Virus record (IMG/VR): IMGVR_UViG_3300048833_000738 | Coordinates: 1 to 36,911 of that record | Strand: one strand, 5' to 3' | Source of the DNA: a virus | Length of the DNA: 36,911 bases | Shown here: in pieces, positions 10,885 to 30,227 of the stretch | How positions within the stretch are numbered: the stretch's first letter is position 1 | Layout of the letters: each line of letters starts with the position of its first letter | Notes under the pieces: generated by a model | The model's input: only the letters and a program-made list of their open reading frames with translations | Database searches by the model: none | What the model was told of the DNA's origin: nothing | Translations under genes and position numbers: made by a program

Positions 10885-10930
10885 AAGCTATGCGCGCGCG
10901 CGAACCTGAAATATCCCCGCAGGTCCGGGG
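10885..10930 (-). promoter_or_regulatory. Late promoter A (tail operon)
   Basis: Read on the minus strand: dyad CCG-GACCTG-CGG (10917-10928, extendable to CCCCG/CGGGG arms at 10915-10930), then GGATATTTC, a 17-bp spacer containing alternating CG, and the -10 hexamer TAGCTT (10885-10890). Transcription would start near 10878, about 20 bp before the TTG of the first tail gene. Three more copies with the same dyad-to-(-10) distance occur at 12337, 19867 and 30184. No TTGACA -35 is present, as expected for an activator-dependent promoter. The activator is inferred to be the Mor/C-like protein at 29820-30173. Confidence 0.75.
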
Positions 10931-10940
10931 GTGTCGCGCT

Positions 10941-11369
10941 TCAGGGCCGCTCGAAGGCCTTCCGGATGCGCTCGGCCAGCTTCGGATACTCGACGTCGGC
11001 CGCGGGCCGCAGGTACGGGTGCGGCGGGATCGTCACCGAGCTCGCGAACCGCACGCTGCCATCCGCCTGCGGGATGGCCAGTGCCTTGGCCCGTACCGGC
11101 CGGATCGTTCCGCCTTCTTCCAGGATGCGGGCCTGTGCCATGTCGCGCACGCCCCAGGTCCCCTTCACGCCGCTCGAGTGCTGGGCCGCGAACTGAGCGA
11201 TATCGATCGCGCCCTCGAGCAGCCCAGTCCGGTTCTGCCAGGGATGGTTGGCCTTCGCCTGCACGACACAGGCCGCCATTGTCCGGTTCACACCCTCCAC
11301 CTGGGCAGCTGCCATCTTTGCGCTCACGGCTTTGCCGTACCACTTCAGCGACTTGGACTTGCCGGCCAT
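10941..11369 (-). CDS. HK97 gp10-like tail completion protein
   Basis: A 142-residue protein starting at ATG 11369. The pattern fits the HK97 gp10-like head-tail/tail completion group: a basic N-terminal helix, NHPWQNRTGLLEGAI in the middle, and a C-terminal PPHPYLRPAADVEYPKLAERI segment with the PyLrPA motif frequently seen in these proteins. It follows the methylase stop by only a few bases, so both are on one transcript. It precedes the tail operon promoter. It probably sits at the neck or the tail top. Confidence 0.75.
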   Translation of the reverse strand: MAGKSKSLKWYGKAVSAKMAAAQVEGVNRTMAACVVQAKANHPWQNRTGLLEGAIDIAQFAAQHSSGVKGTWGVRDMAQARILEEGGTIRPVRAKALAIPQADGSVRFASSVTIPPHPYLRPAADVEYPKLAERIRKAFERP

Positions 11370-11371
11370 GC

Positions 11372-12166
11372 TCAGCCTCTCCCGGTGATGATCAGTTCGC
11401 CGGCGCGCATCGCCTTGCCACCACCCGGCAGTGAATATGTCGTCTCGACCGCCTCGATGTCGAAGCGCCCGAACAGGTCGCGGATCTCCGGCACGTCGTT
11501 GATCGACAGGATGAACCGTCCCTTGAGGACCGCGAGGCGCGCCGCCAGCTCGGCATACTGGTCCCGGCTGAAGAGCCCGGCGCCGTAGTCGCCCTCGCCG
11601 CCCCAGTAGGGTGGGTCGAGGTAGAACAGCGTACCCGGCCGGTCGTAGCGCCGGAGGAACTCCTGCCACGGCAGGTTCTCGATCACCACGCCGGCGAGGC
11701 GCTCGTGAACGTCCTCCAGGACGGGAGCGAGCTTCAGGACGTTGAAGCGCGCCGACCCGGTGGTGCTGACGCCAAAGCTCCGCCCCGCGACCTTGCCGCC
11801 GAAGGCCAGGCGCTGCAGGTAGAGGAACCGCGCGGCCCGCTCGAGGTCCGTCAGGGTCGCCGGGTCACTGGCCTTCAGCCGCTCGAACTCGCGCCGGCTG
11901 GCCACCTGGTAGCGCAGCATGTCCATGAAGGCGGTGTAGTGCCGCTGCAGCACCCGGAACAGCGTCGCCACATCGCCCGAAAAGTCGTTGATCACCTCTG
12001 TCGGCGGCGCCGATCGGCGGCGCAGGAACACCCCGCCCATCCCAACGAAAGCCTCGGCATAGACCGTGTGCGGAGTGGCTTCGATCAGGCCCGTGATCCG
12101 CTGGGAAAGGTTGCGCTTGCCCCCGATATAGCCGGCCGGCGTCCTGGTCGGCTCAATCGGCCGCAT
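11372..12166 (-). CDS. DNA adenine methylase (Dam/D12 class)
   Basis: A 264-residue protein from ATG 12166. It shows PAGYIGGKRNL near the N-terminus, the SAM-binding motif I FVGMGG (residues 40-45), and the catalytic motif IV DPPY (184-187), in the alpha order of the D12 class N6-adenine methylases. The reading frame stays open upstream to 12460, but that part is arginine-rich and does not resemble the family. The ribosome site at 12166 is weak and a GTG 11 codons earlier has AGGG, so the start is uncertain. It is preceded by late promoter C with a leader of about 165 nt. It probably protects phage DNA against host restriction, like Mu Mom or phage Dam enzymes. Confidence 0.85.
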   Translation of the reverse strand: MRPIEPTRTPAGYIGGKRNLSQRITGLIEATPHTVYAEAFVGMGGVFLRRRSAPPTEVINDFSGDVATLFRVLQRHYTAFMDMLRYQVASRREFERLKASDPATLTDLERAARFLYLQRLAFGGKVAGRSFGVSTTGSARFNVLKLAPVLEDVHERLAGVVIENLPWQEFLRRYDRPGTLFYLDPPYWGGEGDYGAGLFSRDQYAELAARLAVLKGRFILSINDVPEIRDLFGRFDIEAVETTYSLPGGGKAMRAGELIITGRG

Positions 12167-12336
12167 TTGAATGAGTTCGTCCACAGTCCCTTTGTCCCGA
12201 CATGGTTCAACCAGCCTGCCCGGAAGGGCGGCGGGTCGGAGTGTCTCCACACACTCATGGGGCTGGACGCCAATCCATTCGCCCCAGTCGAGGTGTTCGC
12301 GCACCTCGGCCGCCCGTCGCGGGTCGCAGCGGGGCC

Positions 12337-12380
12337 AAGCTACGCGCGCGCGCAAGTCAGCGGCATTGCCGTAGGTACGG
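12337..12380 (-). promoter_or_regulatory. Late promoter C (methylase), with possible bidirectional dyad
   Basis: On the minus strand: perfect dyad CCG-TACCTA-CGG (12369-12380) followed at exactly the same distance as in the other copies by a -10 TAGCTT (12337-12342). The spacer ends with a long alternating CG run, as in promoter A. The GGATATTTC element between dyad and spacer is degenerate here. On the plus strand the same dyad is followed by GGATATTGA and, 17 bp later, TGGTAA (12407-12412), ending 11 bp before the ATG of the 89-residue gene at 12423. The dyad might therefore serve both directions; the plus direction is weaker evidence. Confidence 0.6.
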
Positions 12381-12422
12381 GGATATTGAAACGGCTGGGC
12401 CGCACTTGGTAAGGCGGAAGAT

Positions 12423-12692
12423 ATGTCAGAGCCCGTGCACTGGTCGCTGGGATACTTCAAGGCCCAGGGCTATTCGATCACCGCCTACTGCGATGAGCTG
12501 CTTCCGGGCGGACTCCCCTGCGGCCACTCAGCCAGGCTGGACCTGGACGCCCTGATCGCGACGCTCGGGCCGGACTTCCGGGTCGTCGAGCAGCGCGAAC
12601 GCTTCCTCGCATCGCTCAAGTGCGCCCGGTGCAACAGCCGAAGGGTCAGCATCCAGCTCGGCTCGCCGGCGGGCTACGGTCGTTTGGCCTAA
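12423..12692 (+). CDS. Small zinc-ribbon-like protein, function unknown
   Basis: An 89-residue protein with ATG 12423 and AAGGCGG five bases upstream. Cysteines occur in PCGHSARL and in LKCARCNSRR, so a two-knuckle zinc ribbon (Cys-Gly-His plus Cys-x2-Cys) is likely. Short proteins with the same C-terminal CxxC-x-SR pattern are common in alphaproteobacteria. It lies opposite to the surrounding late genes and starts a plus-strand two-gene insert. It could be a cargo gene with its own expression. Function is not known to me. Confidence 0.6.
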   Translation: MSEPVHWSLGYFKAQGYSITAYCDELLPGGLPCGHSARLDLDALIATLGPDFRVVEQRERFLASLKCARCNSRRVSIQLGSPAGYGRLA

Positions 12693-12723
12693 GCCCTGAG
12701 ATTGCGAGAGAGCGGGCCGCGCG

Positions 12724-12770
12724 TTGAAGCCGCTCACCCCATGAAGTAGGCTCCGCCCCAATTCTTGGGG
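12724..12770 (+). promoter_or_regulatory. Possible promoter and palindrome before the SGNH gene
   Basis: TTGAAG (12724-12729), 17 bp, TAGGCT (12747-12752) gives a sigma-70-like promoter. A perfect palindrome CCCCAA-TTC-TTGGGG (12756-12770) covers the predicted transcription start and the GGGGG ribosome site of the TTG start at 12779. It could be an operator or an RNA hairpin that hides the ribosome site. Matches to consensus are moderate (4/6 and 3/6). Confidence 0.35.
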
Positions 12771-12778
12771 GTGCCGAA

Positions 12779-13642
12779 TTGCTGAAGTCGTTACTGGCCT
12801 GGACGCTGCTCACCGGCGCTGCATTTGCAGCCGATGGCGAATACAACGCCATCACCAACACCAACGCCGCGCTCCGCTACGCGCCCACCGTTACGTCCGG
12901 CCAGGCCGGGACTGTCCCGAAGGGCACTGCGCTTGCCGTGACCGTCTGCTTCGACGAGGGCGCCTACTGCCATGTGACCAGCGACGCGCACGAAGGCTAT
13001 GTCGCTGGCGAACTCCTGACCATCGAGGGCGACACCAACACCGTGCTGACCGCCGAGAAGGCCCGCTGGGAACTGATCCGCAAGAGCCGTGAGCCAGTAG
13101 CCGACTATCGCTCCGACGCCCGGAACATCGTCGTCTGGGGCGACAGCCTCTCCTACGATACGTTCGGCGCCGAGCTGGCACGCCTGCTGCCTGGCAGGGA
13201 GGTTTCCATGCAGGGCGTGCCCGGCCAGAGTGGCCAGCAAATCAGCGAACGGATGCTGGCCGATACCCGCTACACCGCCCGCTTCAAGATCATCTGGGAT
13301 CGTCACTGGAGCGGCGAGACGCCCCGCCAATACCTCAGTGAGCTGAAACCGATCATCGATCGTGCCGCCGAAACCGGCGACTTCATCATCCTCTCCGACA
13401 TCCGCCAGATCATTGCCAGCGACAAGATCGACCCGGCCACCGACAAAGTGACCACCGACGAGATCAACCGCGAGCTCGCCCGGCTCTACCCCAGGAACTT
13501 CCTCGACGTGACGGCGCTTCTCGACCCGCCGTCGATGCGGGCCAGCGACGGTCTCCACCTCTCGAGGGCCGGCTACAGTGCCGTGGCCAAGGCCTTGGCT
13601 CAGGCAATCGCCGCCCGAGGCAGTGCGGTCGCCCCTCAATAG
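12779..13642 (+). CDS. Secreted SH3-domain SGNH/GDSL hydrolase
   Basis: A 287-residue protein with a TTG start (12779), GGGGGTG seven bases upstream. Residues 1-18 are a signal peptide (hydrophobic core, cut near AFA-AD). Residues 20-85 form a bacterial SH3 domain (NAALRYAPTVTSGQAGTVPKG pattern split by loops; VCF and CHV cysteines could pair). Residues 115-280 are an SGNH hydrolase: IVVWGDSLS with nucleophile Ser123 and DGLH with Asp257/His260. Such enzymes deacylate cell-envelope polysaccharides or lipids. It runs against the late genes and its 3' end overlaps another SGNH gene by 7 bp. It looks like a lysogenic conversion (moron) gene acting in the periplasm. The substrate is unknown. Confidence 0.8.
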   Translation: MLKSLLAWTLLTGAAFAADGEYNAITNTNAALRYAPTVTSGQAGTVPKGTALAVTVCFDEGAYCHVTSDAHEGYVAGELLTIEGDTNTVLTAEKARWELIRKSREPVADYRSDARNIVVWGDSLSYDTFGAELARLLPGREVSMQGVPGQSGQQISERMLADTRYTARFKIIWDRHWSGETPRQYLSELKPIIDRAAETGDFIILSDIRQIIASDKIDPATDKVTTDEINRELARLYPRNFLDVTALLDPPSMRASDGLHLSRAGYSAVAKALAQAIAARGSAVAPQ

Positions 13643-15006
13643 CCGGCCGCGTCGATGAGCGCCTTGATGTACGGGTCGGCCTGCAGCGCCTGCCCGCTGT
13701 CGTTGAAGTGCTTGTTGTCGGCCCGAGTTCCCCCTCCGCTGACGGCGGCCAAGTACGCGGCCTGCGCACTGGCGTCGAGCGTATGGCCGGCGAAGAATGG
13801 ATCGCTCAGCAGGATCGCCTGCGCGTCGGTCACCACCTGCACGGCTCCGCCCGTCGTGTCCTGTGCCGGTGGCATGACGAACCATCGCGATGCACCGGTC
13901 GCCGCGATCAGAGCCTTGATGTCGGCCGTCCACGTGCCGATGGTTTCGCCAGCGGCCGGCAGGTCCATGATCACCACGATCTGGTCATCGAAGTGCCCGC
14001 CATCGGCAAGGGCAACGGCCAGAGCGTCCGCCGGCGTGTATCCGGCAACACCCCGCGTTGCGGGGATACGCGGGGGACTGTAGCCGTCCCCGTTCTTGCG
14101 CAGCCAGGTCGTGCTCCAGTTGGTGGCGCCGGTGCCGAAGGCAGTGCTGTCGCCATAGGCGACGATGCCCCGCTTAATGGCGCCGATGTCCTGCAGATAG
14201 CGCCGGATGGCCTTCGACTCCGCCTTCTTCTGGGCGGTCGTCAGGTTCCCGCCGAACCCGGCAAACATCACCTGGTTGACGCCCCAGCCGAAGCCATTGG
14301 CGGCGCAGATGCGGATCGTGTTGTTGCTAAGCGCCGCGCTGGCCGTTGACCCGCCGCCATCAGGGTGGGCGAGCCCGTGGGCATACCCCGCCCAGGCATC
14401 GGCCGCGCTACGCGACCATGCGGCCTCGCCGGGAAACGACTGGTTGCCCGCCGTCACCGTGGAAGCGGCCTGCGGTCGGCACGACGGCCGGCCCGGCACC
14501 GAGTTGTGCCGCCCGATCCACGCCGAGAAGTTGCCGATTTCGTAGGAGTCGCCGCCCGCGTTCGCCAGGTCGGTGGCGAGGACGACGAACATCGAGCAGT
14601 CATTCTGCTTGAAGTTCGCGCCCACCGCCGTGGTCGGGTTGAAGCCGGTATCGTAGGCGGCGTTGCTGCCATTGCCGGCTATGTACCTGTCTGGCACGAA
14701 GGTCGGCGATCCGATCTTCGTCAGGTTGTAAGCGTCCTGCCGCCAGTTGAGCAGCGTGCCCGGATCGGTGTCGCGGATGCCGTAGTAGCCGTCCCGCCTA
14801 GCCCACGCCCCGCACGCGACAAGCGCCCGTATCAGCCGATCATCAATTGCCTTGCGCTCTGCCGTTGCCGGCACCGACAGCGCCTCGAGGCGATCAAAGA
14901 GCGCTTTGCTTTCCGCCGCATACCCCACGCCCGTTGCGCGGGCGGAAACCGCTGAGACCGCAGGCAGCACTGCCGGCGTGACGGCTGGGGAGACTTGCCT
15001 AGCCAC
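13636..15006 (-). CDS. Lectin-like/SGNH hydrolase virion protein
   Basis: A 456-residue protein with a GTG start at 15006 overlapping the previous stop. Residues about 40-270 look like a lectin-like jelly roll of fibre proteins (GNGSNAAYDTGFNPTTAVG, then SMFVVLATDL and IGRHNSV). Residues 277-456 form an SGNH hydrolase: AYGDST with Ser287 and DNKHF with Asp430/His433. It is the last gene of the capsid-connector operon. A deacetylase or depolymerase acting on surface glycan during adsorption is plausible. No signal peptide is present, in line with virion incorporation. The hydrolase triad is seen; the virion role is inferred. Confidence 0.7.
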   Translation of the reverse strand: MARQVSPAVTPAVLPAVSAVSARATGVGYAAESKALFDRLEALSVPATAERKAIDDRLIRALVACGAWARRDGYYGIRDTDPGTLLNWRQDAYNLTKIGSPTFVPDRYIAGNGSNAAYDTGFNPTTAVGANFKQNDCSMFVVLATDLANAGGDSYEIGNFSAWIGRHNSVPGRPSCRPQAASTVTAGNQSFPGEAAWSRSAADAWAGYAHGLAHPDGGGSTASAALSNNTIRICAANGFGWGVNQVMFAGFGGNLTTAQKKAESKAIRRYLQDIGAIKRGIVAYGDSTAFGTGATNWSTTWLRKNGDGYSPPRIPATRGVAGYTPADALAVALADGGHFDDQIVVIMDLPAAGETIGTWTADIKALIAATGASRWFVMPPAQDTTGGAVQVVTDAQAILLSDPFFAGHTLDASAQAAYLAAVSGGGTRADNKHFNDSGQALQADPYIKALIDAAGY

Positions 15007-15253
15007 GGAAAGCCCCGAACGACTTGCTGTTGGCCGGGCGACGGACCCGGAAGGTGCCCGGACCGGACAGCACGGCCGAGCCGCTCTTCAGCTCGTAGAT
15101 CTGCGTGAAGGCGCCGGCCTCGTCCTTCTGCTCGATCAACAGCGACACCACGACGGTCTCGCGGATGACGATACTGGTGCTCTCCCCGCTCGCCAGGGTG
15201 AATTCCGAAGAGCTGGCGGCATCGGTGCCGGCGCTGAGCAGGTTGGTAGCCAT
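14999..15253 (-). CDS. Small beta-rich structural protein
   Basis: An 84-residue protein with ATG 15253, ten bases after the head-tail joining gene. It is a Ser/Thr/Val-rich beta protein with a central ESTSIVIRETVVVSLLI strand pair and a Gly-Pro-Gly-Thr-Phe-Arg-Val motif near the end. This type of small beta protein is common next to fibre genes in Mu-like phages and may be an adaptor or decoration protein. No known family was recognised. Confidence 0.55.
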   Translation of the reverse strand: MATNLLSAGTDAASSSEFTLASGESTSIVIRETVVVSLLIEQKDEAGAFTQIYELKSGSAVLSGPGTFRVRRPANSKSFGAFRG

Positions 15254-15262
15254 GTTGATCTC

Positions 15263-15607
15263 CTATGCGACCCGCTTCAGGGCCGCCTCCTGGTGGGTGT
15301 GTTTGCGCTGCACAGGCCCCTCGACCCGCAGCCGTCCGGCGATAATCACGTTGCCCTGCCGGTCCGTGATCGCCGTCAGCTCGTCGTCCTCGAGCAGGTC
15401 GGCGCCGAGCGCGACCATGATCCGCAGATCTTCGATCATCGCCGTCTTGTCGCCATCGATCAGCTCCCGACTCTGGTTCGACCAGGCGAAGCACCGGACC
15501 GCCCCGATCGTCTCCCAGTCGGCCGGCACCGGCTGCCCCCAGGCATCCTTGCCGGTCGCGGTGTTGCGCTGCACGACGGCGCGCATGGTGAGACGGCCGG
15601 CGATCAT
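15263..15607 (-). CDS. Head-tail joining (head closure) protein
   Basis: A 114-residue protein with the pattern of the phage head-tail joining family (SPP1 gp16/HK97 gp9 type). It starts with AGRLTMRAVVQRNTATGKDAWGQPVP, the usual R-x-T-...-D-x-x-G-x-P motif, then WETIGAVRCFAW and short beta strands. ATG 15607 overlaps the zinc protein stop as ATGA. It should close the portal-connector channel and bind the tail. Confidence 0.8.
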   Translation of the reverse strand: MIAGRLTMRAVVQRNTATGKDAWGQPVPADWETIGAVRCFAWSNQSRELIDGDKTAMIEDLRIMVALGADLLEDDELTAITDRQGNVIIAGRLRVEGPVQRKHTHQEAALKRVA

Positions 15608-16331: not shown

Positions 16332-16921
16332 GCCATCACCATGCCGCTGCGGCCGGCGCCCAAGCTGGCCAGCAGCTTCTCCCGCTCCGTGGCGTAGCTG
16401 TCCGACGAGACCGAGCCGGCCCACTGGTAGTCGCCCGCCCGTTCCGACTTGATGAGGCCGCGATAACTGAGGTCGAGCTGGATCAGCTTGATCGTCACCT
16501 CGTCCCGCGCTGCGGAGGTCACGGCATCGGTCGGGGTGTAGGTGAGCTCGACGAGCGGCGCCCAGAACGTTTCGGGATTTGGTCCTGACACGAGCCGCTG
16601 CAGGGTGCGCCCACCATGCAGCACGCGAAAATCCAGTTCGCTCAGAACAGTCCTGACGTCCTCAACGCCCACGTTGCTGCGGTCGATTTCGACGATCTGA
16701 ATACTACTTCCAGGCTGGGCCGGCCGAGTAAGCTTTAGCGTCCGCTGCCAGCGCTCCCGATCGGCAGGGTCGCCGGGATCGCCGAGGGTGATTTCGATCG
16801 CACCCGAGGCGGCGCCGTAGATCACCTCGATCTCGGCTGCGATGCCGGCGATCATCGCCGTCAGCTCGTCGTCGGACAGGTCGGTGCCGGTGCGTTCCCG
16901 GATGCGATCGATGAGGGCCAT
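16328..16921 (-). CDS. Head-tail connector protein (gp6-like)
   Basis: A 197-residue protein. The first 60 residues are the alpha-helical head-tail connector pattern (RIRERTGTDLSDDELTAMI with following helix, acidic ends). The rest is a beta-rich domain with short helices. The position between major capsid gene and head closure gene fits a gp6/gp15-type adaptor that sits under the portal. ATG 16921; the acb2-like stop lies three bases away. The assignment is by pattern and order. Confidence 0.65.
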   Translation of the reverse strand: MALIDRIRERTGTDLSDDELTAMIAGIAAEIEVIYGAASGAIEITLGDPGDPADRERWQRTLKLTRPAQPGSSIQIVEIDRSNVGVEDVRTVLSELDFRVLHGGRTLQRLVSGPNPETFWAPLVELTYTPTDAVTSAARDEVTIKLIQLDLSYRGLIKSERAGDYQWAGSVSSDSYATEREKLLASLGAGRSGMVMA

Positions 16922-16924
16922 CGT

Positions 16925-17167
16925 CTATTTCGCGTCGCTGTCCAGCTTTACGCGGCCGGGTTTGAAGACCGACCGGTTCACGGCCATGAAGCCCTTCTCG
17001 ATGTCGGTGCGGCCGGTTGCCAGCCAGCGCTTGTCGACGTCCGGATCGGCTGCGAGCAGGTCGAGCTGACGCAGCACTTCCTCCTCGAGCAACTTGTTCA
17101 CATTCACCGCGGCGACCTTGTCGTCGCTCTGGGCCTGGTAGCCGCGGACCGGCAAGCCGTCCTTCAT
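16925..17167 (-). CDS. acb2: Acb2-type cyclic-nucleotide sponge (anti-CBASS/Thoeris)
   Basis: An 80-residue protein from ATG 17167, with AAAGGAAG as ribosome site. The C-terminal half, DKRWLATGRTDIEKGFMAVNRSV, is the characteristic hairpin motif of the Acb2/Tad1 hairpin family (RW-x5-TDIxxGFMAxxRxV). The N-terminal part GYQ...NKLLEEEV matches the ligand region. Tyr10 and Lys25 have the same 15-residue spacing as Tyr11 and Lys26, the ligand residues of PaMx33 Acb2 as I recall. Acb2 proteins form hexamers that bind cyclic di- and trinucleotides and so silence CBASS and related signalling defences. Being in the capsid operon, it would be made late and strongly. It has no structural character. 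Family membership is seen; ligand range is inferred. Confidence 0.88.
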   Translation of the reverse strand: MKDGLPVRGYQAQSDDKVAAVNVNKLLEEEVLRQLDLLAADPDVDKRWLATGRTDIEKGFMAVNRSVFKPGRVKLDSDAK

Positions 17168-17189
17168 CGTCGCTTCCTTTGGATTGGTC

Positions 17190-17220
17190 GGGTGAGCCGC
17201 TCCGCCGCTGCAGCTCACCC
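17190..17220 (-). other. RNA hairpin upstream of acb2
   Basis: Stem of 8 bp (GGGTGAGC at 17190-17197 with GCTCACCC at 17213-17220) and a 15-nt loop, 23 bp before the acb2 start. No U-run follows in the transcript direction, so it is not an intrinsic terminator. It could be a processing or stabilising element that separates acb2 translation from the upstream gene. Confidence 0.4.
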
Positions 17221-17267
17221 TGTTACTCGACGCGCCTGTCGGCGGACGCGCGCTGGGTATTCTCCGG

Positions 17268-17768
17268 TCAGCCGCCCTTGTTCTCGGTGGCCTTCTCTTC
17301 CTTGTTGTCGGGCGCCGGCTGCTCCTTCGGCTTGGCCGGCGGTTCCTTCTCGGCCGCAGCCTTCTTCGGCTTGGCAGCCGCCTTCGGCTTCGCCGGCTGC
17401 GGCGGGTTCGCCTTCATCTCGTCGATCGTCGCCTGCAGCTTCGCCTCGCGCTCGGGCTCGGGCAGCGCGTTCCAGTCATCGGGCGAGAGGCCGCTGGACT
17501 TGTGCGCCGCGACCACGATGGCGCCGAGCTGCAGCGTCACCGTGTCAGTGATAACCACCAGGGCCGGCAGGATGCTTGAGCCGAGCAGGGTTTCGTCCCG
17601 ACGCGACCGCCCCTTCAGCTTCCCATCGACGATGCCGAACCGCTCGGCCGCGCTGTCGGGGATTTCGTCGCCCTGGGCGGCGTAGAGGAAGGCGGCCTCG
17701 GCATTGCCTTCGGTGACGAGGCGGCCCTTGTCGGCCGTGAAGTAGAGGCGTTCGCGTGCGTGCTGCAT
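17268..17768 (-). CDS. Capsid-operon protein with Lys/Ala/Pro-rich tail
   Basis: A 166-residue protein from ATG 17768. Residues 1-115 are a folded part (YFTADKGRLVTEGNAEAAFLYAAQGDEIP near the start). Residues 125-166 are a low-complexity tail of Lys, Ala, Pro and Glu. Small proteins with the same start motif are found directly after the capsid gene of Mu-like siphophages, in my recollection. A decoration or scaffold-related role is possible. No enzyme motif. Confidence 0.5.
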   Translation of the reverse strand: MQHARERLYFTADKGRLVTEGNAEAAFLYAAQGDEIPDSAAERFGIVDGKLKGRSRRDETLLGSSILPALVVITDTVTLQLGAIVVAAHKSSGLSPDDWNALPEPEREAKLQATIDEMKANPPQPAKPKAAAKPKKAAAEKEPPAKPKEQPAPDNKEEKATENKGG

Positions 17769-17815
17769 CGAGCAGGCTCCTGCTGGTTGCGGGTTGGACG
17801 GCCAGGAGCCGCGCC

Positions 17816-18364
17816 CTAGATTGTCTCGTAGAAGTCGACGGTGACGGCGGTGCCGTTCAGCGCCGAGTTCAGCGTCACGGTGTTGCTCTCGAGCGCGGCG
17901 GCCGAGAACGCGACGGTCGGCGCCGTGCCTTCCCGCACGCCGGCTAGGAAGGCATGCAGCACAGAGTTGCGACTGAGCCGCTGCGGCAGGCCGAGCTTCG
18001 AGCCTACTCCGATCCGGATGCGCTCGGTGTTGGCCACCGCATACTTGGGCAAGCTGATCGAGGTGATGCTGGCAAAGGCCTTGTTGCCCACGACGACGTT
18101 CGCGGCGTTGAGCGCGATCGTCTCGGTGATGACTTCGCCGGCGATGTTCCGCCCGGTGATAGTGACATTGCCGGTGACGTTGCCGTCATTGCCCTTCACG
18201 GTGACGTTGCGCGCCACGTCGGGCTGGGCCGCGAACACCGTCACCACGGTGGGGTTCACGGCATCGAGCGCGGTGTCGGCGAGGATGGTGGCATTGCTGC
18301 CGAGGATGACGGCGGCGAGGGCCAGCGAGAACACGCGGGCGCCCGATCCGGGTATCTTGCCCAT
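17816..18364 (-). CDS. Probable head decoration protein
   Basis: A 182-residue protein from ATG 18364, the first gene after the major capsid gene. Most of it is Val/Thr/Asn-rich beta sequence (VTVKGNDGNVTGNVTITGRNIAGE and similar), with an apolar N-terminal stretch at residues 12-30 that could be mistaken for a signal sequence. The position and composition fit a capsid decoration or head fibre protein. No family was identified. Confidence 0.5.
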   Translation of the reverse strand: MGKIPGSGARVFSLALAAVILGSNATILADTALDAVNPTVVTVFAAQPDVARNVTVKGNDGNVTGNVTITGRNIAGEVITETIALNAANVVVGNKAFASITSISLPKYAVANTERIRIGVGSKLGLPQRLSRNSVLHAFLAGVREGTAPTVAFSAAALESNTVTLNSALNGTAVTVDFYETI

Positions 18365-18444: not shown

Positions 18445-19773
18445 CTAGAGGCCGGTCACGTCGCAGAATGCGGCGGGCCGGAACACCACCAGGGCCATGC
18501 GCATGTCGCCGCGCACGGTCCGCTTGCCCTCGCCGAACTGGCTGCCGACATACCCGACCTGGATGTCCACGCCCTTGCGTTCAAAGGCGCTGATCCAGGC
18601 AGGCTGGAACGACCCAGTCATGCCGCTGCCGGCAGAGCGGGCATCGTTCTGCACCACCGGCAGGCCCCACAGCCGCTCCGGACCGGCCTCGCTCGGCGAG
18701 CCCCAGATGTAGACGCCATCGGCGGTGCGCAGCAGGCGGATGTTCTGCCAGTCGGTCGGGTGCATGACGTGGTGCGTCGGAAGCGCCCGGCCGGTGACAC
18801 GGATCTTCGTCATCGCCTTGAAGAAGGTGTCGGGCACCGGGTCGGCACCCTTTGCCTGGGTCTGAATGCCGGACACGTTCACGATGCCGCGCAGGTTCGG
18901 CGAGCTGCCGTCACCGACATAGACCTGTCCATCCGCCCGCTGGCGCAGGCCGAAGGTCAGCCGCCCGTTGACGTAGCCGGTCATCATCGGCACGTCCTCG
19001 AACTGCTCGTCGGTCACCGGCAGGCTGTCGGTGATCTTGCGAACGTCCGAGGTCCGCTCGGTGAAGGCAAAGGTGCTTTCGGCGAACTGCGCACCCTCAG
19101 CCTTCTCGGCCGCCGCATGCGTGCGGGTGGTCTCCTCCATGTACTTGATCGCCGCCTGGCTGGTGACGTTCATGGGGATGATGTCGATCAGCTGCAGGGG
19201 GCGCGAGACGGCCTCGACGAAACCGGGCAGGCGCACGCTCTCGGGCGCGAAGCCCGCAGCCGTCGTCATCAGCGTCTTGGCGCCCAGAGTGTCGTATGCC
19301 ATGGCCTTGGCCAGGACGTCGGACGGCAGCACGTCGTAGGAGAAGTCGACGCCGCCGGGGGCGCCACGCTTCAGCCAGTCTTCGTAAGCCTTTTCTTCGG
19401 CGAGCAGCTGGCCCAGCGACTTGACCTGCGGCCGCTCGCGCTCAGACTTCTGACCGCCCGGCTGAGGGACGTGGCCACGCACCTTCTCGCGTGAGGCGTG
19501 CGCCCCCGCCGCCTTCTCGGTCGCTTCCAGCGTCTCGACGTACTCACCCAGCTCGTCGAGCTCTGCGCTCTTCTCGTTGATGCGCTTGGCGATATCGACG
19601 GTGTCGGTAAGGTTCTCGTCGCCGAGCACCGACTTGCGCGTATCCTTGGAGATCAGCTTGAAGTCGTACTTGCCGTCCGAGTTCTTGGCCTCGGCGAACA
19701 CCTTGCCGAGTGCATCCTGCGAAGCCGCCATCTTCTCGCGCGCCTCGGTCAGGGTCAGGTTCAGTTTGGGCAT
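18445..19773 (-). CDS. Major capsid protein, HK97 fold
   Basis: A 442-residue protein, the right size for an HK97-type capsid precursor. The first 125 residues are highly charged helices (delta/scaffold domain, coiled-coil type). The HK97-fold body follows, with the typical segments LMTTAAGFAPES, RPLQLIDIIPM, ALPTHHVMHPTDWQNIR and WGLPVVQNDA. A prohead protease is encoded at 36183-36911 on the other arm and would remove the N-terminal part. ATG 19773 has GGAGGG upstream. Late promoter B lies about 100 bp upstream. Confidence 0.92.
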   Translation of the reverse strand: MPKLNLTLTEAREKMAASQDALGKVFAEAKNSDGKYDFKLISKDTRKSVLGDENLTDTVDIAKRINEKSAELDELGEYVETLEATEKAAGAHASREKVRGHVPQPGGQKSERERPQVKSLGQLLAEEKAYEDWLKRGAPGGVDFSYDVLPSDVLAKAMAYDTLGAKTLMTTAAGFAPESVRLPGFVEAVSRPLQLIDIIPMNVTSQAAIKYMEETTRTHAAAEKAEGAQFAESTFAFTERTSDVRKITDSLPVTDEQFEDVPMMTGYVNGRLTFGLRQRADGQVYVGDGSSPNLRGIVNVSGIQTQAKGADPVPDTFFKAMTKIRVTGRALPTHHVMHPTDWQNIRLLRTADGVYIWGSPSEAGPERLWGLPVVQNDARSAGSGMTGSFQPAWISAFERKGVDIQVGYVGSQFGEGKRTVRGDMRMALVVFRPAAFCDVTGL

Positions 19774-19866: not shown

Positions 19867-19910
19867 AAGCTAGGGGGCCGGCCGCAGCCGAAATATCCCC
19901 GTAGGTGCTG
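19867..19910 (-). promoter_or_regulatory. Late promoter B (capsid operon)
   Basis: Read on the minus strand: dyad CAG-CACCTA-CGG (one mismatch from the consensus CCG/CGG arms), GGATATTTC, a 17-bp GC-rich spacer and the -10 TAGCTT (19867-19872). The dyad-to-(-10) distance is the same as in the other copies. Transcription would start near 19860, giving a leader of about 87 nt before the major capsid gene. Confidence 0.75.
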
Positions 19911-21339: not shown

Positions 21340-21434
21340 TCCCGGAATATACACGAATGGATATTTCGAGCCTAATCCACAGGTGGCAAATCTTAGTGGA
21401 CTGTTTATCCAAATATGGGTATCCATAAATGGAT
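21329..21434 (+). promoter_or_regulatory. Repressor/early promoter region with operators
   Basis: The 94 bp between the two divergent regulators are AT-rich against the genome. Two adjacent 14-bp palindromes occur: ATCCAAATATGGGT (21407-21420, imperfect) and ATCCATAAATGGAT (21421-21434, perfect). A candidate early promoter is TGGACT (21397-21402), 17 bp, TATCCA (21420-21425), with transcription start about at ATG 21433. On the other strand TATATT (21346-21351) would start the repressor transcript near its ATG. Further repeats are GGATATTTC at about 21329 and 21358 and ATTCC-C-GGAAT. Both operators would cover the early promoter. Confidence 0.55.
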
Positions 21435-21645
21435 GAACACGCTCCGTCATATCCGCCGCACCGTGCTGAAGGTAACTCAGGTCGAACTGGCCGCCATCGC
21501 TGGCGTCCGACAGGCCACGATTTCGCGCTGGGAGCGGGATGACTGCACCCCGTCGCTGCCGGCGCTGAAGCGCATCCGGCGAGAGGCCCGCCGTCGCGGG
21601 CTCAAGTGGAACGACTCCTGGTTTTTCGAGGAGGTCGCAGCTTGA
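21433..21645 (+). CDS. Cro-like/early HTH regulator
   Basis: A 70-residue protein from ATG 21433. A helix-turn-helix of the Cro/C1 type runs over residues 13-35 (LAAIAGVRQATISRWERDDCTP). No ribosome site is seen at 21433 or at the alternative ATG 21415, so a leaderless message is likely, given the promoter position. It is the first gene of the plus-strand early operon, facing the repressor. The stop overlaps the next tiny ORF (TTGA). It presumably turns down the repressor and the early promoter after induction, like Ner of Mu or Cro of lambda. Confidence 0.8.
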   Translation: MNTLRHIRRTVLKVTQVELAAIAGVRQATISRWERDDCTPSLPALKRIRREARRRGLKWNDSWFFEEVAA

Positions 21646-21746
21646 GGAACTCATCACACATCACTCCCGGCCCTGTTGTCAGGATCCGTCTGAACGCCGC
21701 GGCCGCCAATAAGCACGTCGCCGGACCGGGGGCTTGCAGGAAATGA
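21642..21746 (+). CDS. Candidate 34-aa early peptide
   Basis: An open frame of 34 codons starting with TTG at 21642. GAGGAGG lies seven bases upstream. The start overlaps the Cro-like stop (TTGA) and the stop overlaps the next ATG (ATGA). The peptide is basic with an Ala-rich centre and has no known motif. The strong ribosome site at ideal distance and two overlap junctions support translation. It may serve only to couple translation. Confidence 0.4.
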   Translation: MRNSSHITPGPVVRIRLNAAAANKHVAGPGACRK

Positions 21747-22189
21747 CCCTCTGTTCTCACATGCCCGAGCGCCCAGCCCGCATCGCCATCGGCTACCCCG
21801 ACGAAGTTGCCGGCCGGGGCGAGCTGCCCAACCAGGTGGCCCGCCTGGTGTCCCGCGCCCTGCGCGATGCCAAGGAAGCGGGTCTTGGCCGCGCCGATGT
21901 CGCCGCCCGCCTCAGCCGCGAGCTCGGCCGCAAGGTCACCGAGAGCATTCTCGAGGGCTGGGCCTCCGAGGCCGACGTCGCTCACCGTATCCCGTTCGAT
22001 GCCTTCGCCGCCCTGGTGAAGGTCACCGGCGCCGTCGATCTGCTCGGCTTCATGCCCGGCCTCTCCGACTTCGTCGTGGTGCCTCGCCGCTACATGGCGG
22101 TGATCGAGCTGCACCTCCTGGAAGAGTTCGAGCGCGCGCTCGCCGACCACAAAGCCAAACTTCAAGCCGACGTGAGGGCACTGAGATGA
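21743..22189 (+). CDS. Early operon protein, possible CII-like regulator
   Basis: A 148-residue protein from ATG 21743 (an in-frame TTG is three codons earlier). The middle contains ADVAARLSRELGRKV and then RIPFDAFAALVKVTGAVDLLGF. This resembles the pattern of phage regulatory proteins of the P2/186 CII group (HTH followed by a helix with a conserved Leu-Thr). The resemblance is weak. It is the third gene of the early operon, before the ParB-like gene. ATGA overlap with the next gene. Confidence 0.55.
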   Translation: MTLCSHMPERPARIAIGYPDEVAGRGELPNQVARLVSRALRDAKEAGLGRADVAARLSRELGRKVTESILEGWASEADVAHRIPFDAFAALVKVTGAVDLLGFMPGLSDFVVVPRRYMAVIELHLLEEFERALADHKAKLQADVRALR

Positions 22190-23151
22190 GTTCGAAGCCG
22201 ATAAGGAAACCCCTCACAGTCCCCCTGTCCGAGGTCGATACCAACGGGCGCCTGCTGCCGCTCCGCGAAGAGGTGGCCCGGGAACTGGCGACGAGCATGT
22301 CGCTCCATGATCAGGCCTTCCACCCGGTCGGCATCCGTCAGACGCCTAACGGCGCCAAAGGCTGGAAGCTCATCTTCGGCCGCCATCGTCTGCGCGCCTT
22401 CGAGATCCTCGGCTGGGTCGACCTCGTCGAGGGTGTGCATTTCACGGTCCTCCAGATGAGCGAGCAGCAGGCACTGCTGGCCGAGATCGAGGAGAACCTC
22501 GCGGGCGGCAAGCACACCGCCTTCGCCCGCGCCGTGATGGTCGCGGCCTACCGGGCCGCCGCGGCGGCCGATGGCCTCCTGCTGGGTCGCGGCGGCGATC
22601 GGAAGAGCGCCGACTACCAGGCCAGGAAGGGTGAGGGCCTTGCCGCCCTTCAGGCGGGTTTCACCGCCCACGCCATGGAGACCTTCGATCTGTCGCGCGA
22701 CCAGGTCGAGCGCCTCGTCCGCATCGGCACCGAGCTCACCAAGCCGCCCGGCCTCGCCGACCGCCTGCACTTCTCCCGCATCGCTCGCAATCAGAGCCAG
22801 CTGCTGAAGCTCGCGGCTCTGCCCGAGGAGCAGCTCGCTCGTGCCGCCGAGGCCTTCGATGCGGCAGAAGGCGATTTCTTCAACCTGATGTCGATCCTGT
22901 CGCAGGCGCCGGCTGCGCAGGCCAAGCTGCTCGGCAAGCTCAAGGCCGGCACCCCGCTCAAGGAAGTGGTGGGCGAGGAGCCTGAGAAGGCACCGGCCTT
23001 CAACCACTGGCAGCAGGCCGTGTCGAGTTACAGCCAGCTCGACTTCAAGGGCCGGGTGGCCGCCACCATCGAGCACTTCAAGGCCGACGAGAAGGCCGTC
23101 CGCGCCGCCGTCGAGAGCCTCGGCTATCGTCTCGTGAAGGTGGCGGAATGA
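22186..23151 (+). CDS. ParB/Srx-fold protein
   Basis: A 321-residue protein. Residues 10-110 match the ParB/Srx fold: LTVPLSEVDTNGRLLP, VGIRQTP and FGRHRLRAFEILGW (residues 64-76), followed by an EIEENL helix typical of box II. Residues 120-200 hold an HTH-like region with FDLSRDQVERLVRIG. In Mu-like phages of alphaproteobacteria such a gene often precedes the transposase. It may bind phage DNA, regulate early transcription or help target choice. An enzymatic (CTPase or nuclease) role cannot be judged here. Confidence 0.75.
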   Translation: MSSKPIRKPLTVPLSEVDTNGRLLPLREEVARELATSMSLHDQAFHPVGIRQTPNGAKGWKLIFGRHRLRAFEILGWVDLVEGVHFTVLQMSEQQALLAEIEENLAGGKHTAFARAVMVAAYRAAAAADGLLLGRGGDRKSADYQARKGEGLAALQAGFTAHAMETFDLSRDQVERLVRIGTELTKPPGLADRLHFSRIARNQSQLLKLAALPEEQLARAAEAFDAAEGDFFNLMSILSQAPAAQAKLLGKLKAGTPLKEVVGEEPEKAPAFNHWQQAVSSYSQLDFKGRVAATIEHFKADEKAVRAAVESLGYRLVKVAE

Positions 23152-25272: not shown

Positions 25273-25308
25273 ATGAAGAAGTCAACAACGAAGAGGATAC
25301 GTAGATGA
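25273..25308 (+). CDS. 11-aa minicistron leading into the ATPase gene
   Basis: ATG 25273 with GGGGAGGG four bases upstream encodes MKKSTTKRIRR and stops with TGA overlapping the ATG of the ATPase gene (ATGA). Arrangement and strong ribosome site suggest a translational coupling peptide, possibly together with the hairpin before it. The peptide itself need not have a function. Confidence 0.35.
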   Translation: MKKSTTKRIRR

Positions 25309-26294: not shown

Positions 26295-26632
26295 TGGGCA
26301 AGCACCACGAAGTCAGCCAGGTCACCCTGGCGGATGGTCTCGAGGCGCTGATCCAGCGGATCGAACCCACCCGCAAGTCCGGTCTGGTCATCATCCGCAG
26401 CGAGGTCCCGGTCCTGCTCGACGGGCTCTATGCCATGCTCGACGAGGCCCGCCACCTGCAGGCGATCGCCGACGCGGCCCAGTGGAACGCCAAGGCCCGC
26501 CGCGATGCCATTCGCGCCGAGAGCCTCGCCGTTGAGGAGGCGATCGCGGGCAGCGGCAACGTCACCAAGTTCCCGGTCGCACCCCGGCTCACTGCGTTCC
26601 GCCGTCCCGATGGCGAAGGCGGTGCGGCATGA
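26294..26632 (+). CDS. Early operon protein of unknown function (112 aa)
   Basis: A 112-residue protein; ATG 26294 overlaps the ATPase stop (TGATG). A helical protein with an N-terminal Glu/Leu region (LADGLEALIQRIEP) and an Ala/Arg helix rich in charged residues at 55-85. The position after the ATPase corresponds to the block of small, little-known early genes of Mu. No family recognised. Confidence 0.5.
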   Translation: MGKHHEVSQVTLADGLEALIQRIEPTRKSGLVIIRSEVPVLLDGLYAMLDEARHLQAIADAAQWNAKARRDAIRAESLAVEEAIAGSGNVTKFPVAPRLTAFRRPDGEGGAA

Positions 26633-26979
26633 ACCAGGTCACCGCCTTTAAGGCAAACACTGAGGCCGGCTTCGATCGCCTCGCTGACATGGTGACATCA
26701 CCCGACGCTCACACCGCCTGTCTGGGCCGCGCCTTTGCGTCCGGCATCGGCGGTGCGCTCGAGAACTGGCTGCAGTCCGAACGTGAGCGCGGCACGGACG
26801 GCATGGTGATCCTTGAGATCGTCGCCACGCTCGGCCTGCAGCACGTCGCGTCCGTTGCCGGCGTGGTCGTCGATCCCGAGGGAGACGAGATACTGGTGCA
26901 GCGGCTCGGTGTGCACCTCGCCACCAGGCTCCCGGTCTATCTCGGCGCCGTTCGGGCTCAGAAGGGCGGTGCTGCATGA
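26629..26979 (+). CDS. Early operon protein of unknown function (116 aa)
   Basis: A 116-residue protein joined to both neighbours by ATGA overlaps. It is mixed alpha/beta, with TDGMVILEIVATLGLQHVASVAG and a C-terminal RLPVYLGAVRAQKGG. No motif of known function. Regular codon use with high GC3 supports that it is real. Confidence 0.5.
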   Translation: MNQVTAFKANTEAGFDRLADMVTSPDAHTACLGRAFASGIGGALENWLQSERERGTDGMVILEIVATLGLQHVASVAGVVVDPEGDEILVQRLGVHLATRLPVYLGAVRAQKGGAA

Positions 26980-27269
26980 GCAGTACTCCGGTCACCATTG
27001 CCACCGGCGTCGTCGCAGATCCGCGCCGGCTCTCGACCGTCGCCAACAGGGATCTGCTCGCCATCTGCCAGGCCCTCGTCGAGGCCGAGGCCCGGCCGCA
27101 AATATCCAACGAACTCGCGGCCGCTGCCCGCGCGCTCATCGAAATGGAAGCCGCCCACACGCTGGCCAAGGGCGCGGACGGCTACGCCCCGCTCAAGGTC
27201 GGCCTCGCCCGAGAGATGGCCTTCCTCACCTTCAAACGCACCTTCGAAGAGGAATTTCCCAATGTCTGA
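26976..27269 (+). CDS. Early operon protein of unknown function (97 aa)
   Basis: A 97-residue mostly helical protein (NRDLLAICQALVEAEAR, ALIEMEAAHTLAK), ATG 26976. Overlaps the previous gene as ATGA and the next gene by eight bases. No known family. It lies directly before the DUF3164 gene. Confidence 0.5.
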   Translation: MSSTPVTIATGVVADPRRLSTVANRDLLAICQALVEAEARPQISNELAAAARALIEMEAAHTLAKGADGYAPLKVGLAREMAFLTFKRTFEEEFPNV

Positions 27270-27912
27270 ACAGACCTCCATCGCCATCGCCGATCCCGTC
27301 CAGCAGATCGGTGGCAAGCCGTTCATGGCCGACGCCGGCGGCCGCCTCGTGCCGCTCGACCTGGTGAAGCCCGAGCACAAGCTCGAGGACCAGGCGGTTC
27401 GCAAGATCGTCGGCTACGCCCTCGACCTCAACGCCCGGATCAGCCGTTTCCGTGGCCACACCTTCGACGACATCGGCACCTTCGTCGATCTGCTCGCCGA
27501 GCAGTACGGCGGCAAGCGCGGTGGCAAGAAGGGCAACCTGACGATCACCAGCTACGACGGCACCCAAAAGGTCACCGTCCAGGTGCAGGACCAGTTGAGC
27601 TTCGGTCCCGAGCTGCAGGTGGCCAAGGAACTGGTCGATGCCTGCATCACCGCCTGGTCGGAGGGCGCTAGCAACGAGATCCGCGCCCTCGTCGAGCATG
27701 CCTTCCAGGTCGACAAGGAGGGGCGCATCAACCGTGCTGCCCTGTTCCAGCTCCGCCGCCTCGACATCAAGGACGACCAGTGGCGCGCCGCCATGGATGC
27801 CCTGGGGGAAGCGATCCGCGTCATCGGGAGCCGTGAGTACGTCCGCATCTACCGCCGCGACGACGCCCGCTCGCCCTGGCAGGCGATCACCATTGACCTG
27901 GCCCAGGCATAG
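27262..27912 (+). CDS. DUF3164-family Mu-like early protein
   Basis: A 216-residue protein from ATG 27262. It matches the DUF3164 group of Mu-like phages: DAGGRLVPLDLVKPEHKLED, GYALDLNARISRFRGHTFDD, KGNLTITSYDGTQKV and a C-terminal GSREYVRIYRRD. The role of this family is unknown; it is a common marker of the Mu-like early region. The longer upstream frame from 26998 was not used because it overlaps the preceding gene. Confidence 0.85.
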   Translation: MSEQTSIAIADPVQQIGGKPFMADAGGRLVPLDLVKPEHKLEDQAVRKIVGYALDLNARISRFRGHTFDDIGTFVDLLAEQYGGKRGGKKGNLTITSYDGTQKVTVQVQDQLSFGPELQVAKELVDACITAWSEGASNEIRALVEHAFQVDKEGRINRAALFQLRRLDIKDDQWRAAMDALGEAIRVIGSREYVRIYRRDDARSPWQAITIDLAQA

Positions 27913-27922
27913 GAGGGGCGCC

Positions 27923-28189
27923 ATGCGCACACTGACACTTACCCTTCTCAACGCGCTGCTTGCTGCTCGATCGGTAGGCGGCATGGGCCTGAAGCACGCC
28001 GCAAACGGCTGGGTGGAAGAGAGGGCGCCCAACGTGGCGTACAGCGAGAGGACCATCCAGCAGCTGGTGGGCCTCCGTCTTTTAGAGGTCAGCATCCAGA
28101 TGGAACCAGTGATCGACCGACGTGCCTTCATCACGGGTGCCGGCATTGCCGCAGTTGACGATCACATAAGCGTCGAGTGGAGGCCGTGA
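27923..28189 (+). CDS. Early operon protein, possible winged helix (88 aa)
   Basis: An 88-residue protein from ATG 27923 with AGGAGGGG upstream, the best ribosome site in this part of the operon. The sequence YSERTIQQLVGLRLLEVS followed by RRAFITGAGIAAV resembles a small winged-helix fold with a wing and the word ITGAG typical at its end. A DNA-binding role is a weak inference. Family not identified. Confidence 0.5.
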   Translation: MRTLTLTLLNALLAARSVGGMGLKHAANGWVEERAPNVAYSERTIQQLVGLRLLEVSIQMEPVIDRRAFITGAGIAAVDDHISVEWRP

Positions 28190-28470
28190 TGCGGATGCAC
28201 GAAGGTGCACGTCAGACGCTTACCCGCCTCCTCGAGATAGTCGAGGCAAGGCTGAAGGCCCTGCCGTCCTGGGAGGATCGCCCCGCTCGCCGACAGGCGG
28301 TCGAAACCCTAGAGCTCGATCTCGAGGAGCACGGCGCCCGGTTCGGCTTTGTGTCCGGCGGCTACACCGTCTCGCTTGCTGGCGTTCGCGCCAGCAGCAC
28401 AATGGCGACCGAAAGTGCACTGCAGAACTGGTGCGCCGGCGCGCGCAAGCGGCTCGGAGGTGCGTCATGA
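28189..28470 (+). CDS. Early operon protein of unknown function (93 aa)
   Basis: A 93-residue protein from ATG 28189 overlapping the previous stop as TGATG (an in-frame GTG is four codons earlier). It has a helical first half (LTRLLEIVEARLKALPSWEDRP) and a beta-type second half with FGFVSGGYTVSLAGVRASS and WCAGARKRL. No known motif. Confidence 0.5.
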   Translation: MRMHEGARQTLTRLLEIVEARLKALPSWEDRPARRQAVETLELDLEEHGARFGFVSGGYTVSLAGVRASSTMATESALQNWCAGARKRLGGAS

Positions 28471-28592
28471 GCCGCCCTGCCTTCCGTCGCCCCATCCCCA
28501 TGCGGACCGCGCTCCTGCTCTCGGCCGTCAGCACCATCGTCTCCTGCTTCGCGATCGCCTGGGCGGTCAAGGCGGCCCTCAATGTCGGCTGA
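28467..28592 (+). CDS. Small membrane protein, 41 aa
   Basis: A 41-codon frame from ATG 28467 (ATGA overlap with the gene before) to 28592, overlapping the next gene by 11 bp. A basic N-terminus (SRPAFRRPIPMR) is followed by a single hydrophobic helix (TALLLSAVSTIVSCFAIAWAV). The junctions support translation. Function unknown. Confidence 0.55.
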   Translation: MSRPAFRRPIPMRTALLLSAVSTIVSCFAIAWAVKAALNVG

Positions 28593-28983
28593 ACAACAAT
28601 CGACACGGGGTCGTCCGACCAAAGAGGCCCGCGAGGCGCGTCGGGTGGAGGGCCTGTTCTGGGTCGCCCGCCAGATCCTCCGCGCCGATACCGATGCGGA
28701 GCGCGCTGCCATCCTGCTGCGCCTCCCCGACCTCCTGCTGACCCAGAAGGCCGACGTGCTGCGCGAGGCGTGCGAGGCCTGCAGCTTCGACGACGGTGCC
28801 CGCTACATCGCCGTGCGCAGCGCTACCTGTTCGGCCACGCGCGACGAGTATGGCGAGCTGCCGTCCGGTCAGCTGGCTTCGCTCGAGTTCTGGCGGCGCG
28901 GCATGGTCTTCATTGCCCATCGCTTCACCGATCGCGACCGTCAGATCGCCTCCTGGATCGAAGTGGCGGGAGTGGCACCATGA
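28582..28983 (+). CDS. Early operon protein of unknown function (133 aa)
   Basis: A 133-residue protein from ATG 28582. Helical N-terminal half (GRPTKEAREARRVEGLFWVARQ region and ERAAILLRLPDLL), then cysteines in REACEACSF and a C-terminal part with FWRRGMVFIAHRF. It directly precedes gemA and shares its ATGA junction. No family recognised. Confidence 0.5.
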   Translation: MSAEQQSTRGRPTKEAREARRVEGLFWVARQILRADTDAERAAILLRLPDLLLTQKADVLREACEACSFDDGARYIAVRSATCSATRDEYGELPSGQLASLEFWRRGMVFIAHRFTDRDRQIASWIEVAGVAP

Positions 28984-29609
28984 CCTCGATCGCCGCCATG
29001 CATGTCGCCAAGAAGCAGCTCGGCCTTGACGATGATACCTATCGCGCCGCCCTCCACCAGGTGACGGGCAAGTCGTCCTCGGCCGACATGACCGAGGCCG
29101 AGCGTCAGCGCGTGCTCGAGCACTTCCGCGCCCATGGCTTCAAGGCATCTTCAAGCACCCGTCGAAAGCCCCTTGAAGGCAAGTTCGCCGGCAAGCTGCA
29201 GGCGCTCTGGATCGCCGGGTGGAACCTCGGCCTGGTCCGTGATCGCGACGATCGCGCGCTCCTCGCCTTCGTCAAGCGCCAGACGGGCATCGATCACACC
29301 CGCTTCCTGCGTCATGGGCAGGACGCGATGAAGGCGATCGAGGCCCTCAAGGGCTGGCTCGAGCGGTCAGGTGGGGTCGACTGGAAGGAGCACAGCGACC
29401 CCGCGGCCTGCGTCCTCGCCGCCCAGGTCAGGCGGCTGCGCGCCGAGTGGGAGCGCAACCGCAGCGCGGGGGTCGGCCTGCCCCTGCTCATCGATACGGT
29501 GGCCGGTCACGATGTCGGCAACATCCCGACGATGTCCGAAGCGACCCGGCTCGCCACCATGAACACGCTGGGCGAGCGCATCCGCGCCTTGCCCTCGGTG
29601 AAGCCATGA
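28980..29609 (+). CDS. gemA: GemA-like protein (DUF1018)
   Basis: A 209-residue protein from ATG 28980 (ATGA overlap). It matches the GemA/Mu gp16 family: IAAMHVAKKQLGLDDDTYRAAL near the start, LQALWIAGWNLGLVRDRDDRALLAFVKRQTG in the middle and WLERSGGVDW. GemA of Mu affects host gene expression and DNA topology. The family is a good marker of Mu-like phages. Confidence 0.9.
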   Translation: MTSIAAMHVAKKQLGLDDDTYRAALHQVTGKSSSADMTEAERQRVLEHFRAHGFKASSSTRRKPLEGKFAGKLQALWIAGWNLGLVRDRDDRALLAFVKRQTGIDHTRFLRHGQDAMKAIEALKGWLERSGGVDWKEHSDPAACVLAAQVRRLRAEWERNRSAGVGLPLLIDTVAGHDVGNIPTMSEATRLATMNTLGERIRALPSVKP

Positions 29610-29827
29610 GCTTCGCCGCGCGCCAGCAGGCACTCGTCCGCCACCTGCAGTGGGGGCCGTCACGCGGCCGTCGCCGGCAGTCCGTGGCCAAGGAGCTGCG
29701 CGACCTGGTGCGCGACGAGCTGCAGCGGGAGGTCGCCTCCCGGCGGCCGGATCGGCCGGCGCAGCCGGAGGGTCACGACGTCGAGCGCCGTCCCCGCTAC
29801 TACTGGCAGGAGCGGGACGATGGCTGA
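29606..29827 (+). CDS. Small basic protein before the late activator
   Basis: A 73-residue Arg-rich protein (SFAARQQALVRHLQWGPSRGRRRQSV, DLVRDELQREVASRRP) from ATG 29606. ATGA overlap with gemA and an 8-bp overlap with the activator gene. No known family; the charge suggests nucleic acid contact. Confidence 0.5.
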   Translation: MSFAARQQALVRHLQWGPSRGRRRQSVAKELRDLVRDELQREVASRRPDRPAQPEGHDVERRPRYYWQERDDG

Positions 29828-30173
29828 CACCCCGGCCCACATCGCCCGCTTCGTCGACGTGCTCGGCGCCGAGCTATCGCTTCAGCTCTTCCTCCAGCTG
29901 GGCGGTTCTCAGATCAACCTGCCGCGCCGCTCGAGCGATACGACGCCGGCCGCCCGTGCCATCGGCGCCGACCAGGTCGAGCGCCTTGCCGAAGCACTAG
30001 GCCCCGGCTACATCAAGGTGCCGCTGGCCCGCCAGTGGATTGCCGGGCAGCTGCGGGCCAAGGGCACCAGCGACAACGAGATCGCCCGCATCGTCCGGGC
30101 CGACGTCGAGACCGTCCGCCGCTGGGTGACTGCCCCGGCCAGCAAGTCCACCGACCAGCTCGACCTGTTCTAG
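29820..30173 (+). CDS. Mor/C-like transcription activator
   Basis: A 117-residue protein, close to Mor (129) and C (140) of Mu. The Mor/C dimerisation beta strand is visible as LGGSQINLPRR (residues 28-37), a second GPGYIKVPL element follows at 61-69, and residues 80-104 form the C-terminal helix-turn-helix (GTSDNEIARIVRADVETVRRWV). As last gene of the early operon it stands directly before late promoter D. Mor turns on the middle promoter and C the late promoters of Mu; only one such protein is visible here, so it may do both. The four dyad sites are its proposed targets. Confidence 0.85.
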   Translation: MADTPAHIARFVDVLGAELSLQLFLQLGGSQINLPRRSSDTTPAARAIGADQVERLAEALGPGYIKVPLARQWIAGQLRAKGTSDNEIARIVRADVETVRRWVTAPASKSTDQLDLF

Positions 30174-30183
30174 GCGGACACCC

Positions 30184-30227
30184 CCGCACCCGCGGGAATA
30201 TATCGACCCGCCACCCCCTGACAGATT
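30184..30227 (+). promoter_or_regulatory. Late promoter D (lysis/terminase arm)
   Basis: Plus strand: dyad CCG-CACCCG-CGG (30184-30195), GAATATATC, a 17-bp spacer and CAGATT as -10 (30222-30227). The distance from the dyad to the -10 is the same as in the other three copies. The bases before the dyad (GACACCCCCG) are also shared with promoter A. Transcription would start near 30234, with a leader of about 54 nt before the endolysin ATG, and there is alternating CG downstream. The remainder of 30174-30287 holds no gene. Confidence 0.7.

Follow-up and report, generated by a model that had tools for sequence, protein, structure and literature searches.

Four putative late promoters with a common dyad and fixed spacing in a Mu-like phage encoding a single Mor-like activator

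The late operons of the virus examined here raise the question of whether genes for tail, DNA methylation, capsid, and lysis/packaging functions are switched on together and, if so, by which protein. The window analyzed was the whole 36,911-nucleotide stretch of IMG/VR virus record IMGVR_UViG_3300048833_000738. Inspection of both strands revealed a 12-bp dyad followed after exactly 26 bp by a hexamer at four places, designated sites A to D (Table 1). All four lay where the original prediction had placed them and had the equal dyad-to-−10 distance that it had claimed. The CCG...CGG dyad that it had proposed is a dialect of this phage, from which site C deviates (CAG, not CCG), and the general form is CGYA-NN-TRCG; the proposed −10 sequence TAGCTT was found at A, B, and C but not at D (CAGATT). 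A shared sequence in the −35 region of three sites was confirmed, as exact copies of GGATATTTC at A and C and a relative, GAATATATC, at D; site B differs (CAATGCCGC). At site D, the sense strand showed no consensus sigma-70 promoter. Sites A to D are very probably late promoters of a Mu-like phage that would be switched on by a single Mor-like activator in an early-to-late cascade.

Table 1. Coordinates of the putative promoters, associated genes, and insert in the window
Feature	Coordinates	Strand	Description
Site A, putative tail promoter	10885..10928	minus	CCGGACCTGCGG-26-TAGCTT, with GGATATTTC between; 70 bp upstream of gp17-like tail completion gene
Site B, putative promoter ahead of dam and neck	12337..12380	minus	CCGTACCTACGG-26-TAGCTT; within insert missing from Mwe-Yong1
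Site C, putative capsid promoter	19867..19910	minus	CAGCACCTACGG-26-TAGCTT, with GGATATTTC between; 137 bp upstream of major capsid gene
Site D, putative lysis/packaging promoter	30184..30227	plus	CCGCACCCGCGG-26-CAGATT; TGn (CTGA) ahead of −10
Tail completion gp17-like gene	10442..10858	minus	PF11367 (7e-9); downstream of site A
D12-class adenine methyltransferase gene (dam)	11375..12180 (putative start codon)	minus	PF02086 (5.9e-21); downstream of site B
Insert relative to Mwe-Yong1	12324..15266		Identified by blastn; parts dam from capsid operon, with site B at its edge
Major capsid gene	18448..19773	minus	PF05065 (1.1e-31); first gene found after site C
Putative Mor-like late activator gene, 117 aa	29820..30173	plus	phrog_836 (1.9e-15); last gene ahead of lysis promoter
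Phage lysozyme gene	30288..30773	plus	PF00959 (1.1e-39); first gene following site D

The dyad by itself was uninformative as evidence, with 75 matches to the 12-mer in the window (with 2 mismatches) compared to about 100 expected. An exact dyad, CCGTACCTGCGG, was also found at 11007 to 11018 (minus strand) within the neck gene, without a −10 sequence at 26 bp, and is probably a codon coincidence. Dyad, spacer, and −10 sequence combined are far beyond chance. Scored with a matrix built from the other three sites, with columns picked when all four sites were already in view, A, B, C, and D reached 40.7, 26.4, 38.8, and 27.7, respectively; the top score was 21 to 23 across 200 simulated windows, none of which reached the score of any site, and no further window position passed this leave-one-out composite scan. 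Because the columns had been picked after all sites were viewed, a separate matrix was built from 56 sites in 25 related records, with the window's own sites excluded. With this independent matrix, D (31.8), A (23.9), and C (20.3) ranked at the top of the window (null maximum of 12.1 in 60 simulations), and B scored 2.7, within the null, so that B is identified by its resemblance to this phage's other sites.

Relatives were traced through the protein encoded at 29820 to 30173 and comprised three sequenced phages (Mwe-Yong1, Aussie, and StopSmel) together with viral contigs and bacterial genomes; a third scan of viral contigs, in which a wider alignment was used, added three loci only. The Mor, capsid, tail completion, and dam genes were located by tblastn, and for each gene the best composite site nearby was noted. 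Recurrence of the dyads before the same operons in relatives had been named in advance as a test, and lysis, capsid, and tail sites did recur at equal spacing ahead of the corresponding genes in about 25 related records, generally as CGYA-NN-TRCG, then GGATRTTTC, and then the −10 sequence. In nearly all relatives these sites lay 3 to 33 bp after mor, 91 to 139 bp from the capsid gene, and 57 to 122 bp from the tail gene, and the lysis, capsid, and tail places ranked first in a leave-one-record-out scan. Three members of the predicted four-site set are therefore common to the relatives, but the methylase site (B) is not, as no site was recorded before dam among the composite sites listed near their mapped genes.

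Among the relatives, the spacer was 27 bp in a few copies (the capsid sites of L016, L073, and L074 and the lysis site of G003), the lysis site of Mwe-Yong1 was degenerate, and the lysis site alone was found in relative G013. Distant records G023 and G024, with Mor proteins 30 to 32% identical, carried three or four sites of the form CCGC-N4-GCGG with GCATGAT. In the two best blastn matches around site A, conservation was confined to the promoter (window positions 10882 to 10932). Mwe-Yong1 and the Sinorhizobium phages Aussie and StopSmel share annotated Mor homologs, the same late gene modules, and the same sites with the phage studied here but differ in having no dam promoter and in dyad flanks that are mostly GCG...CGC or ACG...CGT; no promoters are annotated in their records. 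Mwe-Yong1 (L009) is labeled a Microcystis phage, yet genomic relatives of its Mor sit in proteobacteria.

By blastn, window positions 11382 to 12323 and 15267 to 15606 matched L009 positions 16541 to 17480 and 17488 to 17827, which adjoin in L009, where the dam leader lies next to the head-closure gene (17480/17488). The intervening insert in the window (2,943 bp, or 2.9 kb) holds two plus-strand genes (12423 to 12692 and 12779 to 13642), which sever dam and neck from promoter C, and site B lies 14 bp within it, facing dam. In the simplest reading, site B probably arrived together with the insert by which dam was parted from the capsid operon. A reading in which B, unlike the other three sites, is a chance or decayed match, and dam and neck have no late promoter of their own, is unlikely, though worth weighing. 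Its score with the relatives-only matrix and the lack of a dam site in relatives would fit such a match, as would Mwe-Yong1, in which a plus-strand gene likewise lies between neck and dam but no clear site accompanies it, so that an operon break need not bring a promoter. Against this, the dyad of site B (CGTA-CC-TACG) is perfect, its −10 block TAGCTTGGC is the same as that of site A, none of the 200 simulations reached its leave-one-out score, and it faces dam at the very edge of the insert.

Other features of this region were recorded. The insert gene at 12779 to 13642 (plus strand) was GDSL/SGNH lipase-like with a weak SH3 match, both below Pfam cutoffs. The dam leader contains a hairpin, GAGGTG-N6-CACCTC (12291 to 12308, minus strand), which could regulate dam expression and of which the stem is kept and the loop altered in Mwe-Yong1. 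A putative small ORF at 12085 to 12273 (minus strand; MSVWRHSDPPPFRAGWLNHVG...) overlaps the dam start in another frame and is 80% identical in Mwe-Yong1.

The protein predicted to read these sites is encoded directly before site D, in agreement with the original prediction of a Mor/C-like protein there. It was assigned to PHROG 836 (late transcriptional activator), which was matched by this protein and all 22 aligned relatives (23 members); the best family of Mu Mor was PHROG 532, followed by PHROG 836 (1.2e-10). Alignment to a Mu-type Mor/C profile (hhalign) gave a probability of 92 and an E value of 6e-7. The window protein had no match to the Pfam Mor model (PF08765) even at an E value of 1, the model matched 16 of 23 relatives weakly (best E value, 0.0016), and it matched neither Mwe-Yong1 nor Aussie. 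An AlphaFold model (mean pLDDT, 83) matched the Mu Mor structure 1rr7 weakly in Foldseek (rank 47; E value, 0.85; TM scores, 0.26/0.31). With VIA-align the match was good for the C-terminal helix-turn-helix (HTH) only, and Mor was not among the matches listed; the top BFVD match was the Mor-like factor of Achromobacter phage Mano. When the Mor alignment was searched against PDB sequences, the matches were chiefly designed repeat proteins and generic HTH proteins, and this search was set aside. From the PHROG 836 and hhalign links, the Pfam Mor miss, the weak 1rr7 match, and the Mano match, the window protein is placed by sequence in a sister family of Mu Mor, outside PF08765 membership, with its Mor fold putative.

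A profile search of six-frame ORFs found one Mor-like protein in the window, one in each relative with a match (n = 20), and two in Mu; no second C-type gene was found in the window or in the 20 relatives. With one Mor-like protein, not Mor plus C, the cascade is probably two-step. The search for relatives also recovered a hypothetical protein of Thiobacimonas phage vB_ThpS-P1 (L082, 1501 to 1890) that is Mor-like (31% identical). This phage is reported as having no Mor (PMC5488378), and no clear site was seen by eye in the region following the distant Mor.

What the sequence itself shows is the four sites with their spacing, the recurrence of three of them ahead of the same genes in relatives, and a single activator gene; from these, a mechanism of binding, dimerization, activation, and timing may be proposed. 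The Mor-like protein would be made from the last early gene; its dimer would bind the CGYA-NN-TRCG dyad centered near −44 and recruit host RNA polymerase to promoters without a −35 box. Lysis/packaging (D), capsid (C), dam and neck (B), and tail (A) genes would be switched on jointly, and the cascade would run from early to late without a separate middle phase.

This arrangement resembles that of phage Mu in several respects. Here the dyad center precedes the first −10 base by 32.5 bp, compared to 31.5 bp in Mu Pmom with its C site and −10 sequence as assigned in this analysis. Like the Mu C promoters (Plys, PI, PP, and Pmom; PMC4461284), the sites number four and stand before genes for the same four functions, namely lysis (D, as for lys), head (C, as for I), tail (A, as for P), and DNA modification (B, as for mom), with a dyad about 32 bp ahead of a non-consensus −10 sequence and no good −35 sequence, and, as at Plys, the activator gene is immediately upstream of the lysis promoter. 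Mu Pm, which Mor binds around −43.5, likewise has no −35 hexamer (PMC4287176); here too the putative activator is the last early gene, and the promoter lies just past mor with its dyad near −44. The features of a Mu-type late promoter, namely a dyad near −44, a non-consensus −10, no −35, and late operons downstream, were thus all present. In contrast to Mu, the dyad is GC-rich (the Mu C site is AT-rich), the modification gene encodes a D12 methylase in place of Mom, the lysis promoter carries TGn, and the capsid and tail operons run leftward. Moreover, the promoter after mor, unlike Pm, would directly drive lysis/packaging, and a second C-type gene is absent. The predicted analogy with the four C-activated promoters of Mu therefore extends to spacing, late operons, and regulator position but not to the three phases with two activators (Mor and C), as the one activator here probably leaves no separate middle phase.

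Late promoters at these sites could also be read by a different protein, either a host regulator or another phage protein, with the Mor-like protein acting elsewhere. Site and Mor divergence were correlated across 20 records (Mantel test, r = 0.43, P = 0.002) but not after removal of near-duplicates (P = 0.18); covariation of dyad and Mor was accordingly dropped as evidence, and the link between protein and dyad draws on family, position, and geometry. A different reader is nonetheless quite improbable, given that the sole PHROG 836-type protein in each genome is encoded immediately (3 to 33 bp) upstream of the lysis site, that the dyad-to-−10 distance agrees with that of Mu to within 1 bp, and that the sites occur in contigs of several bacterial groups, which argues against a single host factor. 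That the dyads are repressor or Ner operators silencing late genes in the lysogen was rejected as extremely improbable, for although operators are typically dyads near transcription starts, no site rose above background with either matrix in the repressor/early region (21400 to 22200), and a −10 at constant distance with no −35 suits activation.

Among promoters activated, in the favored reading, by the Mor-like protein, two classes were distinguished in the relatives and window. Of 26 lysis promoters, 24 had C as the first base of the −10 sequence, and 19 (16 of 23 distinct sites) were preceded there by TGn, an extended −10 element as defined previously (PMC4287176), whereas T began the −10 sequence in 34 of 35 capsid and tail promoters and TGn occurred in none of the 35; Fisher values for this split overstate independence because the records are related. 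The lysis class is thus of the extended −10 type (CTGA-CAGATT, with TGn and an initial C) and the capsid/tail class of the TAGNNT type. The TGn and weak −10 sequence of lysis promoters probably set a different basal level or timing, and the split offers a simple sequence basis for separate timing of lysis and assembly. More tentatively, and with somewhat less than even confidence, these phages may form a widespread transposable lineage whose whole late program depends on one Mor-like activator acting at two classes of promoter. Lysis timing would then be set by the difference in −10 class, and a new break in an operon would be mended by a fresh promoter copy, as for dam here.

The open-licence literature searched deals with the late promoters of Mu itself and records that Mu-like phages carry mor genes; the motif was not found described there. 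The recognition motif is apparently new, and the principle of Mu-type late promoters is already known. The Mu late-promoter paradigm is thereby extended, with a directly testable recognition sequence, to a large and little-studied group of transposable phages, and the motif allows late operons to be found in unannotated Mu-like phages. In one relative (L031, position 2442), the promoter stands ahead of mor itself, which suggests positive feedback on the activator.
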